Below, piece after piece: positions 24,757-59,479 of a stretch of 64,000 nucleotides of DNA. Source of the DNA: Nitrosopumilus piranensis (GTDB lineage Archaea; Thermoproteota; Nitrososphaeria; Nitrososphaerales; Nitrosopumilaceae); assembly GCF_000875775.1 (NCBI RefSeq), contig NZ_CP010868.1, forward strand, positions 372,001 through 436,000, given 5' to 3'. Below the pieces are notes generated by a model. That model made no database searches and had not been told where the DNA came from. It was given only the letters and a program-made list of their open reading frames with translations. The stretch's first letter is position 1. Each line of letters begins with the position of its first letter. The position numbers were made by a program, and so were the translations under genes.

Positions 24757-26247
24757 ATGGATAAATGGGCTGACTATCTAATTTCTGAGGTCAGTTATGA
24801 TACACAACACTTGATTTCGATTGCTATTAGACATAGAGATACAGATCAAGGCATAACTAAAGGAAAACCTATTGATCGACTTGCTATTTCATCTGATATA
24901 AAAAATGGTATTTCTTATGTAACAATTTACAGTACAAAAAACTCTTGGAAAAAAGGACACAAAATTCAAACCTTTTCAATAGATGGTGAACCATTTTTAC
25001 GAATTGATGGAAACAAAGTCAAATTAGATTATTTAGGCGATCTACCTAATGTGTCTAATCTGGGATTGCTTGAACCAGAATTAGCACCAGAACCTGTTGT
25101 TGAACAAGAAAAAATTCCAGAACCACCTCCACCAAGTCCTAGAGGTTCATTACCAAAAGAATCTGTAGAAGAGCTTCCTCAGGAACTTGATTTAGCACCA
25201 GAACCTGTTGTTGAACAAGAAAAAATTCCAGAACCACCTCCACCAAGTCCTAGAGGTTCATTACCAAAAGAATCTGTAGAAGAGCTTCCTCAGGAACTTG
25301 ATTTAGCACCAGAACCTGTTGTTGAACAAGAAAAAATTCCAGAGATAAAAGAGGAAGAAGCTACTCCTGAACAACTAGCTAGATTCGAACAATTAGAAAA
25401 ACAAATTCAAGAATTAGAATCACGACCCAAACCTGAACCTGAAGAAGAAGCTACTCCTGAACAACTAGCTAGATTCGAACAATTAGAAAAACAAATTCAA
25501 GAATTAGAATCACGACCCAAACCTGAACCTGAAGAAGAAGCTACTCCTGAACAACTAGCTAGATTCGAACAATTAGAAAAACAAATTCAAGAATTAGAAT
25601 CACAGCCACCTCCACCAAATCCTAGAGGTTCATTACCAAAAGAATCTGCAAAAGAAGTTTTTGAAGAAATAGAACATGCTACAGAAGCAATTTATGAACC
25701 TGAAGAAGCTACTCCTAAACAATTTGCACAATTAGATGAACTTCAGAAACAAATTGATGAATTAGAAACAAAACTATCTAACAAGCCAATCCCTAAAATC
25801 AAATCTGAACCCAAAGAGGAACCTGAATCTGAACAAATTTCTGAAATTGATGATCTACAAGATCAAATTGATGAATTGGAAAATGAATTATTTTCAAAAT
25901 TGCATCCTCCATCTGATGAACCTACACAAGAACAGATTTCAAAAGTACATGAATTAGAAAAAGAAATTGAAAAATTGGAATCTGCAGATATTGAACATGA
26001 AATCATTCAAACATTACAAAAACAAAATAAAAAATTAGATGACATTGAGAAAAGGCTTGATAGTCATTCCAACAAAGTTTCTCTAAACTCCAATTCTCTT
26101 GAGGCTTATTGTGTTAAATGTAGAGCAAAGAGAAAAATCAAAAACCCTGAAGAAACAACTATGAAAAATGGAAGACCTGCCATGAAAGGATTTTGTTCTA
26201 TTTGTAATTGCAAAGTATTTCGTATTGTAAAAATGAAAAAGTCATAA
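24757..26247 (+). CDS. Repeat-rich coiled-coil protein with DUF3892-like N-terminus and zinc-ribbon C-terminus
   Basis: A 496-residue protein of three parts. Residues 1-95 (WADYLISEVSYDTQHLISIA, later YSTKNSWKKGHKIQTF) resemble the small DUF3892 domain. Residues 105-435 are low complexity: a proline-rich 37-residue repeat, then a 30-residue EEATPEQLARFEQLEKQ coiled-coil repeat, then degenerate copies. The C-terminus has CVKCRAKRKIK...CSICNCKVF, a DUF5679-type zinc ribbon. The repeats are near-identical at DNA level, so they expanded recently. It may bridge partners, as coiled coil and zinc ribbon suggest; function unknown. Confidence 0.85.
   Translation: MDKWADYLISEVSYDTQHLISIAIRHRDTDQGITKGKPIDRLAISSDIKNGISYVTIYSTKNSWKKGHKIQTFSIDGEPFLRIDGNKVKLDYLGDLPNVSNLGLLEPELAPEPVVEQEKIPEPPPPSPRGSLPKESVEELPQELDLAPEPVVEQEKIPEPPPPSPRGSLPKESVEELPQELDLAPEPVVEQEKIPEIKEEEATPEQLARFEQLEKQIQELESRPKPEPEEEATPEQLARFEQLEKQIQELESRPKPEPEEEATPEQLARFEQLEKQIQELESQPPPPNPRGSLPKESAKEVFEEIEHATEAIYEPEEATPKQFAQLDELQKQIDELETKLSNKPIPKIKSEPKEEPESEQISEIDDLQDQIDELENELFSKLHPPSDEPTQEQISKVHELEKEIEKLESADIEHEIIQTLQKQNKKLDDIEKRLDSHSNKVSLNSNSLEAYCVKCRAKRKIKNPEETTMKNGRPAMKGFCSICNCKVFRIVKMKKS
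25081..25341 (+). repeat. Tandem 111-bp coding repeat (two full copies plus part of a third)
   Basis: Units start at 25081, 25192 and 25303. The first two are identical over 111 bases by eye, and the third matches for about 39 bases before diverging. Each encodes 37 residues beginning LAPEPVVEQEKIPE. Confidence 0.9.
25351..25614 (+). repeat. Tandem 90-bp coding repeat (three copies)
   Basis: Units start at 25351, 25441 and 25531 with nearly identical DNA. Each encodes 30 residues with EQLARFEQLEKQIQELES. The third copy ends in the proline-rich segment of the other repeat family, so the two repeat types have recombined. Confidence 0.9.
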
Positions 26248-52678: not shown

Positions 52679-53326
52679 TTAGAAAATATAATTCGAATTT
52701 GCACCATCAAAGTTTATTGTGACACCTGACAAATACTTTATCTTATTTTGAATAATTGACTTTACAAAATTCCCTATCTCTTCTGGTTCTCCTAGTCTTT
52801 TCATAGGTAGTGATTTTTTGAATTCTTCAACATTTTCTATTAGTTCTTGAGTTCTATCAGTGTTTATTGGTCCTGGTGCAATATTGATACAACTAATTTG
52901 ATTTTCAGCAAATTCTTTACTTAATACTTTGAATACTTCTGCAAACGCTGCACGATATGCTGATGAAATTATCAATTTTGAATTTGGCTCTTTGATTACA
53001 TTTGAACTGATAAGAAAGATGTACCCGTTGTCATTTATTTTGATATTTTGTAATATTGTGCAAAATCCTAAGAATAATTGATTGTGATATAATTTCCAAT
53101 CTTCTTCTGTAATTGTTTTAAATGGTTTTGGGGCAGGTCCTCCTGTATTTAGCACCAAAATATCTACTTGATTATGATCTTTTACAAATTCTCTTACACT
53201 AGACAAATCTGATGTATCTACATCATTTTTTGATGCTGCAAAAACATCAATTTCTAATGTTTTTAGTGATTCTGAGATTGCCTTTCCTATTCCTCTTGAA
53301 CCGCCTAGAACAATTGCACTAGTCAT
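52679..53326 (-). CDS. Short-chain dehydrogenase/reductase-like protein with altered active site
   Basis: A 215-residue Rossmann protein with TSAIVLGGSRGIGKAISESL at the N-terminus, LNTGGPAPKPF near 58 (NAG position as NTG), and ISSNVIKEP near 106 for the serine. The catalytic YxxxK is not apparent: the expected helix reads SSAYRAAFAEVFK, with arginine and phenylalanine around. Proteins of this sort are common in the phylum. It may bind nucleotide without classical catalysis. It is the last chromosomal gene before the integrase. Confidence 0.8.
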   Translation of the reverse strand: MTSAIVLGGSRGIGKAISESLKTLEIDVFAASKNDVDTSDLSSVREFVKDHNQVDILVLNTGGPAPKPFKTITEEDWKLYHNQLFLGFCTILQNIKINDNGYIFLISSNVIKEPNSKLIISSAYRAAFAEVFKVLSKEFAENQISCINIAPGPINTDRTQELIENVEEFKKSLPMKRLGEPEEIGNFVKSIIQNKIKYLSGVTINFDGANSNYIF

Positions 53327-53410
53327 ATCATTTTAAAATAAGATTGATAATTAAATTTCTTTAGCTACCCTTTTTGTTCTTATTAAATTAAAAATAATAC
53401 TCTATACAAC

Positions 53411-54499
53411 TTGAAAACTCTCCAAAAGAACCTCAGAAAGACTCTCACAAGGGATGAATTCATTGAAAAGTTCTACAACAAATCCAAGTCTTCAGGTTCT
53501 AGAACAGTTTTACTTGCTGTGCTGAAGAAATTTGACAGTTTTTGTACTGAAGTATATGGTCAGGATTCAGAGTCACTAATTGTGGAGCTTAGAGGCGATC
53601 TGAGTGATGCATTGTACAACTTTCTACAGGATTTTGTAAATTATATGGAAAACAAGGAGCTAAATCCCAAGACAATCGCATCATACTTCAGCACATTACG
53701 TACATTTCTTCGAAGTCAGGGAATCAAGATTAGCTCAGATGACATAAAGGACTTGATTCGATTACCTGAAATAATTCAGGAACTTCGAGAACCACTAACC
53801 AAAGATCAACTGAAGTTATTGTTGGATTACTCAAAACCAGACAGAAAAGCTCTGTATCTGACATTACTAAGCTCAGGCATGAGAATTGGTGAAGCGTTAT
53901 CACTACGAAAAAAGGACTTTGATTTAGCCTCAAAAACCATTCAAATCACCATTCCTGGTAGATTCACAAAGACAAAGCAGACCCGCCAAACCTACATTTC
54001 TAGTGAGGCAAAAGAAGCAGTACTGAGAATTTTAGAAGAAAAACAAGATGATGATCTGGTATTTGGAAAATCTGAAAATTTGATAATGGCAAAACTATCT
54101 GAAGAAAGAACATTTGACAATCTTCGAAAGAGATGTGGTTTGACTGAAAAATATTCAGACAGCAACAGACACAAAGTTAACATCCACTCTATGAGAGCAT
54201 TCTTTCACACCCAAGCTTCAATTGTTCATGATGAGCAGTATGCAAACGCTATGGATGGACATCAAGGGTATCTGATGCAGTATTATCGTCTTTCCCCAGA
54301 CAAAAGATTAGAATTGTATCTGGAATTGGAACCAAGCTTGCTGATTTATCAACATACAGATTATCATAAATCACAAAAAGCATTACAGACTAAGGTCCAG
54401 GAACTTGAAGAAAGAAACAAGGAATTGATGAATCTAAAGGATGATCTTGATAAGATTAAACAAAAGTTGTCTATTTCTGAAAAATATCAAAAGGATTAA
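53411..54499 (+). CDS. Tyrosine recombinase / integrase
   Basis: A site-specific DNA integrase of 362 residues. N-terminal SAM-like arm-binding domain (LRGDLSDALYNFLQDFVNYM near 60), catalytic domain from about 127: first arginine in SSGMRIGEALSLR near 159, lysine in RFTKTKQTR near 189, HSMRAFFH near 255 (HxxR-type), GHQGYL near 279 and the nucleophile in QYYRLSPDKR near 287. A coiled-coil tail of 50 residues follows. TTG at 53411 is a probable leaderless start with a TATA-like TTAAAAATAATAC about 25 bases before. It defines the element boundary. Confidence 0.93.
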   Translation: MKTLQKNLRKTLTRDEFIEKFYNKSKSSGSRTVLLAVLKKFDSFCTEVYGQDSESLIVELRGDLSDALYNFLQDFVNYMENKELNPKTIASYFSTLRTFLRSQGIKISSDDIKDLIRLPEIIQELREPLTKDQLKLLLDYSKPDRKALYLTLLSSGMRIGEALSLRKKDFDLASKTIQITIPGRFTKTKQTRQTYISSEAKEAVLRILEEKQDDDLVFGKSENLIMAKLSEERTFDNLRKRCGLTEKYSDSNRHKVNIHSMRAFFHTQASIVHDEQYANAMDGHQGYLMQYYRLSPDKRLELYLELEPSLLIYQHTDYHKSQKALQTKVQELEERNKELMNLKDDLDKIKQKLSISEKYQKD

Positions 54500-54503
54500 T
54501 CCG

Positions 54504-54511
54504 CTTAAATA
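54504..54511 (+). promoter_or_regulatory. Possible TATA box for the hairpin array
   Basis: CTTAAATA after CCG resembles BRE plus TATA. Expected mRNA start is near 54533, ahead of the first hairpin unit. An AATAGTT (54508-54514), inverted copy of the unit leader, overlaps it. Confidence 0.35.
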
Positions 54512-54552
54512 GTTATTTTGTAATAATATGTTGTATGAATAATTTAGAAAAT

Positions 54553-54716
54553 GGAACTATTCTAAAAGTTCAAAAATTGAACTTTACAGAGACGGAACTA
54601 TTTTCAAAGTTATCAGTGATAAGTTTTCAAAAGAGGAACTATTCTGAAAGCTCTATGATAGAGCTTTTACAAAGAAGAACTATGTTGAAAAGTACGGTCA
54701 CCGCACTTTTCAACAT
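54553..54716 (+). repeat. Array of four 41-bp hairpin units
   Basis: Units start at 54553, 54594, 54635 and 54676, spacing exactly 41. Positions 1-8 are GGAACTAT (AGAACTAT in the fourth). A stem-loop sits at the same place in each: AAAGTTCAA/TTGAACTTT with loop AAA; AAAGTTATC/GATAAGTTT (one mismatch) with loop AGT; AAAGCTCTA/TAGAGCTTT with loop TGA; and a longer 14-base stem in the fourth, GTTGAAAAGTACGG/CCGCACTTTTCAAC (one mismatch) with loop TCA. Stem sequence varies while pairing is kept, so selection acts on structure in DNA or RNA. It lies behind the integrase. Confidence 0.85.
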
Positions 54717-54739
54717 CTAAAAAAATTCTAAATTTTCCA

Positions 54740-54756
54740 AATAGTTCCTTTAAACA
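54740..54756 (+). promoter_or_regulatory. Promoter of the small-protein operon with inverted copy of the array leader
   Basis: AATAGTTCC (54740-54748) is the exact reverse complement of the unit leader GGAACTATT and touches the TATA-like TTTAAAC (54749-54756). The ATG at 54777 lies about 25 bases beyond, as expected for a leaderless start. A protein that binds the leader would sit at this promoter. Confidence 0.5.
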
Positions 54757-54776
54757 ACTTAATCTGTTTAATCTTC

Positions 54777-54899
54777 ATGAATTCAAAATCATACCATATC
54801 GTTGTATCAGAATTCAACTATGAGAAACTCAAAAAATTAGGCTCTAAAGGTGATTCATTTGATGATATAGTAACTAGGCTCTTGGAGGCTCAAAAATAA
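54777..54899 (+). CDS. Small VapB-like antitoxin or RHH-type regulator (40 aa)
   Basis: ATG at 54777 gives 40 residues. It starts with a strand (KSYHIVVSEFNYEKLKKLG) and contains DSFDDIVTRLLEA, a helix pattern shared by VapB-type antitoxins (SFsDVIxRLL). No PIN toxin follows directly. The stop overlaps the next ATG (TAATG), indicating coupling. It may be a DNA-binding regulator of its own operon. Confidence 0.7.
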   Translation: MNSKSYHIVVSEFNYEKLKKLGSKGDSFDDIVTRLLEAQK

Positions 54900-55120
54900 T
54901 GGATTTTATGCCTGTTTTTCACTGTAAATGTAAAAAGTCCAAGACAAATCGTCTAATTCTAGATGGTGGCTCTGAAGGGAATTACATCCTTGAACTATGT
55001 CCAAAATGCTACAAAAATCAAGATTGTAAGTTTGTAATAAAAAAAGAAATCATTACTGAATCTATTGATCCGGGAAGGTCACATTCAAACTCAGTAACGG
55101 GGTTGATTACAACTGGTTAA
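54899..55120 (+). CDS. Zinc-ribbon micro-protein (73 aa)
   Basis: CKCKKSKTNR near residue 9 and LCPKCYKNQDC near 33 supply four to five cysteines for one zinc ribbon; no other domain is visible. It is linked to the 40-residue gene by a TAATG overlap. Unknown role, but small zinc proteins of this sort are typical in archaeal viruses. Confidence 0.7.
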   Translation: MDFMPVFHCKCKKSKTNRLILDGGSEGNYILELCPKCYKNQDCKFVIKKEIITESIDPGRSHSNSVTGLITTG

Positions 55121-55562: not shown

Positions 55563-56120
55563 ATGTCTAAGCTTACTTCAAAGAAAAAGGCAGTTTATCT
55601 CCAGATAATTATTAGTCGTGATGGTTTCAAATGTTTTTACTGCAAGCAATCATTTGTAAAAAATAACTGGATTTACGAACACTTAGACAATAATCCTAAT
55701 CATTCTGAAGTAGAAAACATAGTACTTGCTCATCAATCCTGCAACTTAAAGAAAAGAAATGACTGTGATATGCAAATTATGGCTATGGAAAAACTCAAGC
55801 TAAATCACCAAGTGAACTTATCGTGTGAGAGAGAAAGTGTAGAACTCGAAGGGCCCACTTTGAGTCCAGAAATGGATACAAACATGCAAAATTTTGAGAT
55901 AACTGAGCAATATATCACCGAAATAATCCAAACTGATACCTCAATTGAGGCTAAAAATGCCATAAATGCTGCAGCCATGCTTTGTCATAAAAAAACAGGC
56001 AGTGGAAGTACTGTGGCCATAAGACGATATATTGACATGCTAACTTCAAGTGAAGGCCCATTTATGTTTGCCAAAAATGATGAAGGGAAAAAGATTATTA
56101 TAAAAAGGAGTGGAAAATAA
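55563..56120 (+). CDS. HNH-family endonuclease
   Basis: A 185-residue protein. The HNH core is CFYCKQSFVKNNWIYEHLDN near 24-43 and SEVENIVLAHQSCNLKK near 48-64: two zinc cysteine pairs with the EHLD histidine and the N/H positions of the beta-beta-alpha metal fold. The C-terminal 110 residues, with helix AKNAINAAAMLCHKKTGSGS, are unfamiliar. It may be a virus-encoded nuclease, homing-type or packaging-related. Confidence 0.8.
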   Translation: MSKLTSKKKAVYLQIIISRDGFKCFYCKQSFVKNNWIYEHLDNNPNHSEVENIVLAHQSCNLKKRNDCDMQIMAMEKLKLNHQVNLSCERESVELEGPTLSPEMDTNMQNFEITEQYITEIIQTDTSIEAKNAINAAAMLCHKKTGSGSTVAIRRYIDMLTSSEGPFMFAKNDEGKKIIIKRSGK

Positions 56121-59231: not shown

Positions 59232-59479
59232 TTGAAACCTTTGAGAATTTTTCTGGATTCAAGAGATTGGATTATTCTTGCTAGAGTCCATCTTGGGAAA
59301 GAAAAGTCAAGTCTAATGATATGGTTGATATTAATCATCTATCTGGTGCTATACCTTATTGCGATATTGTGGTAGTTGAAAAAATGTTTGCAAATTTAAG
59401 TAAGAAACAGAAATTAGATAAAAAATACAATTGTATTATTTGCAATTCTCTTCAGGAACTTGATCAGGTTATGTCTTAA
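59232..59479 (+). pseudogene. PIN-like small protein remnant with frameshift
   Basis: Frame one (from TTG at 59232) reads LRIFLDSRDWIILARVHLGK, like the first strand and helix of a PIN-like nuclease. The sequence then continues in another frame, open from 59285 to TAA at 59477-59479, with IPYCDIVVVEKMFANLSKKQ and a CIIC segment. The two halves look like one protein of about 80 residues with a frameshift between about 59290 and 59345. Neither half alone is a normal gene. Confidence 0.45.

Follow-up and report, generated by a model that had tools for sequence, protein, structure and literature searches.

A tandem array of four hairpin units lies behind the integrase of an integrated element in Nitrosopumilus piranensis. 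Comparison with related elements shows that the stem sequence is free to change while self-pairing is kept, usually with a 3-nucleotide loop, which points to a selected, undescribed structured DNA or RNA signal. The array travels with a pair of small genes encoding a VapB/RHH-like and a CxC protein, and not with one integrase lineage. Our tentative explanation, held at somewhat less than even confidence, is that the array is a cis-acting, hairpin-forming DNA that would be bound through its leader by a protein of the element. Little is known of how the integrated elements of ammonia-oxidising archaea, most of them cryptic, are replicated and controlled (PMC6563490). An array that covaries and is linked to a regulator-like module of two genes offers a concrete way to test how such elements are controlled or copied.

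The array and the element that carries it

The window, that is the whole 64,000-nucleotide stretch of DNA analysed, covers C1:372001-436000 of a complete 1.71-Mb genome (G000). The integrated element begins with a tyrosine integrase at 53411 and, judged from its gene content, ends past the window at a window coordinate of about 69.7 kb; direct repeats or attachment-site repeats were looked for at its ends and none were found. It encodes the integrase, an HNH protein, AlbA_2 and many unknowns. Thaumarchaeal cryptic integrated elements have been described as an integrase with mostly uncharacterised genes, without a virion or conjugation signature (PMC6563490). The junction between an SDR gene and the integrase (window 53326-53411, with L145 and L147) is common to G000, G097:C26 and G126:C16; despite this, the DNA downstream of the integrase in G126:C16 differs from that in G000. 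The features around the array are listed below with covariance-model (CM) scores, which for units 1 to 4 are not independent because the model was built from nine units including these four, the inverted fifth unit being outside the training set.

53411..54499, + strand: tyrosine integrase, first gene of the integrated element (Phage_integrase PF00589, 6.4e-13)
54504..54512, + strand: TATA-like box CTTAAATAG, directly after the integrase stop (read from sequence only)
54553..54593, + strand: unit 1, leader GGAACTATTCTA and hairpin 54565-54585 (9 bp, loop AAA, CM 44.5 bits)
54594..54634, + strand: unit 2, leader GGAACTATTTTC and hairpin 54606-54626 (loop AGT, CM 43.1 bits)
54635..54675, + strand: unit 3, leader GGAACTATTCTG and hairpin 54647-54667 (9 bp, loop TGA, CM 48.1 bits)
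54676..54716, + strand: unit 4, leader AGAACTATG and long hairpin 54682-54716 (loop TCA, CM 38.6 bits)
54718..54748, - strand: weak, inverted fifth unit, GGAACTATTTGG and AAAATTTAGAATTTT (CM 24.4 bits)
54740..54755, + strand: inverted leader AATAGTTCC abutting TTTAAAC, the putative TATA-like box of the next gene
54777..54899, + strand: 40-aa VapB/RHH-like protein (PF02697 1.7e-5, slightly below the gathering score; two helices predicted)
54899..55120, + strand: 73-aa CxC...CxxC zinc-like protein, overlapping the VapB/RHH-like gene and conserved with it in relatives
55563..56120, + strand: HNH endonuclease-like protein

The first-pass annotation had described four units in exact 41-base register with a common leader, and direct reading bears this out: the units start at 54553, 54594, 54635 and 54676, and in each of them the leader GGAACTATTnTn, present as GGAACTATT in three units and as AGAACTATG in unit 4, is joined directly to a hairpin with a 3-nucleotide loop. 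The hairpins are AAAGTTCAA/AAA/TTGAACTTT in unit 1 (9/9 pairs), AAAGTTATC/AGT/GATAAGTTT in unit 2 (8/9 pairs, one G.G), AAAGCTCTA/TGA/TAGAGCTTT in unit 3 (9/9 pairs) and ATGTTGAAAAGTACGG/TCA/CCGCACTTTTCAACAT in unit 4 (15 bp, one A.C mismatch). That all hairpins sit at the same position is exact for units 1 to 3 and true to within one base for unit 4, where the stem is much longer and the loop is one base off register. Likewise, the statement that the stems differ and still pair with themselves holds completely for units 1 and 3, and with the one mispair each in units 2 and 4. The inner 13 nucleotides differ among all four units. In the RNA fold, the leader complement of the fifth unit, a unit overlooked by the first-pass annotation, is able to pair with the leader of unit 3.

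The array is not a product of chance, because its Tandem Repeats Finder score is 116, GGAACTATT occurs six times in the window (0.72 expected), the RNA fold of 54530-54760 has z = -8.2 on the + strand and -6.4 on the - strand with no shuffle equally stable, and 54500-54776 contains three strong hairpins, compared with 0.27 in shuffles (maximum 2; 500 shuffles). Coding is not the reason for it either, as had been stated at the first pass: a 61-aa ORF (54535-54720) spans the array, but consecutive units lie in different frames of it and no conservation of the ORF was found in the relatives read. Whole-genome searches of G000 found only the one array cluster.

The HNH endonuclease-like gene is also present in the G083 and G097 elements and was not found in the G217 element; against the IscB model its product gives a weak match in the HNH part (E 6.8e-5, far below the cut-off). 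Further downstream, at 59321-59479, a truncated-looking 52-aa frame resembles the C-terminal end of a protein of 319 aa from the G217 element (L144:637-1596). Elsewhere in the window, 25081-25603 holds two perfect tandem repeats (111 bp x2.4 and 90 bp x2.8, 100% identical) with periods that are multiples of three.

Related arrays and a second leader

The first-pass annotation had pointed to a covariance-model search of archaeal genomes, and homologous units are now known from at least four other elements and two genera. They are all in Nitrosopumilaceae elements (G217:C15, from another genus, G097:C26, G083:C1 and G126:C23), and five carriers of the leader are firmly known. The relatives were found mainly via synteny, with a search for the CxC protein leading to G217:C15 and G083:C1 and an integrase search to G097:C26; the unit in G126:C23 was found by DNA search. 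G217:C15 has three direct units with a spacing of 48 and 39 and a fourth hairpin, for which the inverted reading gives the degenerate leader AGAAGTATTATC. Two units 58 bp apart in G097 and one unit in G083 are inverted relative to the integrase. In G126:C23, a single unit is located within the N-terminal extension of a 417-aa frame, about 60 nucleotides in and behind a TATA-like box, and the homologue of this frame in G149 starts just past the unit position; the 8.5-kb contig of G126:C23 has no RHH/CxC pair. All nine aligned units, from two genera, have an identical leader core, GAACTAT, while integrases and spacers have diverged. In the weaker units (G097, G083 and unit 4 of G217) both palindrome length and loop vary, making a rigid dimer operator in duplex DNA unlikely.

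In 250 family and 400 class genomes, the covariance model gave confident matches only in G000, G126, G217 and G097; scores independent of the training set are those of the inverted units and of a match in G007. The match in question (G007:C192; 25.4 bits) may plausibly be a further unit, though unproven: at 1485-1540 of its locus (L156), a palindrome of AGAACTATTACTC and GTTCCCTAGGGAAC, closed by an inverted leader, has a dehydrogenase gene on one side and an HTH gene on the other, and no integrase was seen at the locus. Of the weaker matches, part of which were inspected, one in G034:C24 (31.9 bits) was dismissed since it is inside a coding frame. The 250 family genomes, viral contigs and genome contigs were also scanned for the leader followed by AAAG-N13-CTTT, and the matches inspected beyond G000, G126:C23 and G217:C15 were chance-like or coding-like, with poor pairing. 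Nothing was found in integrase, HNH and CxC searches of viral contigs or in distant DNA searches of phages and plasmids.

A second array, with the unrelated leader ACTTTTGTGACTA, consists of three units directly behind an integrase in G047:C42. Its hairpins, ATCTGTAACAA/CAG/TTGTTACAGAT, TATGACAT/AAT/ATGTCATA and ATCTGCGAAAG/GTT/CTTTCACAGAT, have stems of 11, 8 and 10 bp and 3-nucleotide loops, an architecture as in G000. It was identified by scanning some 1.0 Mb of fetched loci with a motif-free detector, which also recovered the known arrays. A similar detector applied to 1.4 Mb of element-bearing DNA returned the G000, G217 and G047 arrays and a few weak matches, which are meaningless because shuffled sequence gave 6 matches. 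Arrays are rare among the integrase neighbourhoods sampled, and hairpins behind other integrases are single and mostly ordinary. Since this second array has another leader, the architecture would seem to recur and not to be a one-genome curiosity. Behind the integrase of another locus (L255, G122:C2) there is a cluster of palindromes containing TATCGATA.

Covariation of the stems

Nine units were aligned and the 9-bp stem was counted, with 500 shuffles as control. In these rows, which come from four genomes and include related units of one array, a kinship that remains in the shuffle control, 88.9% of the stem cells were paired (64.1 +/- 3.6% in shuffles). Seven of the nine stem pairs had changes on both sides, and the total of two-sided changes was 17, compared with 4.9 in shuffles. 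The covariation score of 0.633 (0.166 in shuffles), for a stem structure derived partly from the same sequences, was reached by none of the 500 shuffles, and every measure was reached by at most three of them. Sliding the stem partners against each other lowered pairing to 33-56%, leaving a sharp peak at zero slide. A natural control is provided by 17 chance genome matches to leader-AAAG-N13-CTTT: they pair at 5.6 of 9 positions on average, of which 4 are forced, and their inner positions are paired in about 33%, compared with 41 of 45 inner cells in the nine units. The first-pass annotation had proposed selection for structure, to be checked by aligning related elements for compensatory changes; related arrays exist and their stems covary, and the proposal is supported.

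Association with a small RHH-like module

The leader accompanies the VapB/RHH-like and CxC pair in G000, G217, G083 and G097, and suspicion thus shifts from the integrase to the RHH-like module, by a correlation over few elements. In the G097 assembly the RHH-like gene is broken by a frameshift, and this row was left out of the alignment. Structure prediction gave two helices for the RHH-like protein (pLDDT 82). PDB sequence and fold searches with this protein gave no significant match, the fold search being uninformative. The predicted structure of the CxC protein has low confidence (pLDDT 70). A small frame that looks RHH-like by eye only is located near the array in G047.

The inverted leader is also found at the promoter of the gene pair. 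TAGTTC directly precedes TTTAAA at 3 of 260 TTTAAA sites examined, and all three are in this module, one in G000 and two in G083; one further site has TAGTT only. The two sites of G083:C1 (L071 1238 and about 1345) read AATAGTTC and AATTAGTTCC, each directly before TTTAAA, and looser forms of the inverted leader lie beside TTTAAA at the promoter of the pair in G097 and G217. With two clear cases, part of this promoter arrangement may be due to chance.

A proposed protein-bound DNA array and its alternatives

In the explanation we tentatively favour, the leader would be the sequence-specific recognition site of a DNA-binding protein encoded by the element, with the RHH-like protein as first candidate. 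In negatively supercoiled or single-stranded DNA the adjoining palindrome would form a hairpin, and several such protein-hairpin sites might regulate the gene pair, or the replication or mobilisation of the element. DNA is favoured over RNA because the orientation of the array relative to the RHH-like gene varies (same in G000 and G217, opposite in G097 and G083), both strands fold about equally well, leaders lie beside TATA-like boxes and there is no wobble bias, since the mispairs of the leader-sense strand, counted by eye, are two G.T and two A.C. Several observations speak against this explanation. Transcription from the TATA-like box at 54504 would take in the array, and the G126:C23 unit, in the 5' portion of a reading frame, would fit an RNA role as well. 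The RHH assignment falls slightly short of the Pfam cut-off, in G097 the RHH-like gene is disrupted, the contig of G126:C23 lacks the pair and there are few firm carriers. The arguments on RNA versus DNA are weak on both sides, and the triloop is no more an argument for DNA than for RNA. Possibly, though with a little less confidence than we give the DNA explanation itself, the arrays belong to a new class of site, serving regulation or replication, at which protein and nucleic acid interact in the mobile elements of archaea. In it, units of a sequence-specific leader and a structure-specific triloop hairpin would be arrayed, with leaders differing between element lineages; two leader types have been seen so far.

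Nearly as likely as the DNA explanation is that the array is part of a small non-coding RNA. Judging by the position of the box at 54504, about 45 nucleotides upstream of unit 1, a putative transcript would start near 54534 and include the array, so that consecutive hairpins parted by single-stranded GGAACUAUU could serve as a protein decoy or an antisense regulator. The stable fold of the + strand and the position of the G126:C23 unit would fit such an RNA, and covariation is a classical sign of structured RNA but equally expected of a DNA hairpin. However, the orientation relative to neighbouring genes flips between elements, there is no consistent promoter before the arrays, no G.U bias is seen on either strand, no Rfam family matches at threshold, and transcription from a promoter would not normally cover the leader complement next to its TATA box.

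Single-stranded DNA hairpins acting in replication or transfer of the excised element, as priming, origin or mobilisation sites, are an unlikely explanation. A structure kept while its sequence varies, 3-nucleotide loops, a sequence-specific leader adjoining the hairpin and an array with strand-neutral orientation inside the element would all suit them, but the scanned neighbours include no recognisable Rep, relaxase or primase, and most other sampled integrase neighbourhoods have no array, which is thus not a general requirement.

The first-pass annotation had also considered the neighbouring integrase as binder. This reading lost ground because the same leader accompanies two integrase lineages with about 24-25% identity between carriers, whereas no such array is seen in the roughly 1.4 kb downstream of the closest sampled integrase, that of G126:C16 (75% identical). 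That the adjacent tyrosine integrase binds or recombines at the array, for example at folded sites like attC, would agree with the position of arrays, which have two different leaders, right behind integrases from three lineages; the weak match to the integron integrase model, the lack of cassettes and the lack of paired core sites at both unit ends make it very improbable. Equally remote is a functionless palindrome-rich leftover kept by mutation (template-switch correction) and gene conversion: quasi-palindrome correction can yield two-sided changes and some stems retain mismatches, but the GAACTAT core is invariant despite diverged integrases and spacers, and the architecture is repeated with an unrelated leader.

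Comparison with known systems

The first-pass annotation knew of no matching family, and this agrees with our searches. Rfam gave no match at the gathering score (best TD-2, 29.5 bits, threshold 48.7), literature searches found no paper describing such arrays, and the word hairpin is absent from the main text of a survey of thaumarchaeal integrated elements (PMC6563490). Type III antitoxin RNAs such as ToxI and CptI, suggested at the first pass, are tandem structured RNA repeats beside a gene (PMC8860590), and the array resembles them in having tandem structured repeats adjoining a gene. The suggestion was not supported: no member of the ToxN/CptN/TenpN endoribonuclease family was found next to the array or among the element ORFs scanned with Pfam, NCBIfam and PADLOC, a scan that took in part of the small ORFs. 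Moreover, the repeats are not near-identical, since the inner 13 nucleotides and the stems vary by unit, and they are simple triloop hairpins, not pseudoknots.

Integron attC sites are repeated palindromic sites near a tyrosine recombinase in which structure is kept and stem sequence varies (PMC2727003), and the array is similar in both respects. However, the integrase is not of the IntI type (TIGR02249, 28.5 bits, cut-off 265), and the units of about 41 bp are contiguous, with no gene cassettes and no complementary core sites at their ends. The nearest described DNA triloop hairpins with partly variable stems known to us are the promoters used by the virion RNA polymerase of phage N4. These short hairpins in DNA have a 3-nucleotide loop and both conserved and variable stem bases, and are extruded under negative supercoiling (PMC4496689). 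This is an analogy only: N4 has three promoters, not in a tight array, with conserved loop and stem bases, and no N4-type polymerase was seen in the G000 element.

REP sequences, associated with TnpA_REP proteins of the IS200/IS605 type, have a short conserved foot followed by a hairpin, and the direct joining of a short conserved leader to a hairpin is common to both. REP sequences are dispersed and similar in sequence, whereas the G000 array is a single cluster in its genome with no TnpA seen nearby. The operator and centromere arrays of plasmid RHH proteins (omega, ParG, CopG) are plain double-stranded repeats without covarying hairpins. As in the G000 array, a short motif is repeated ahead of a small gene of RHH-like type; the G000 array adds the covarying hairpins.
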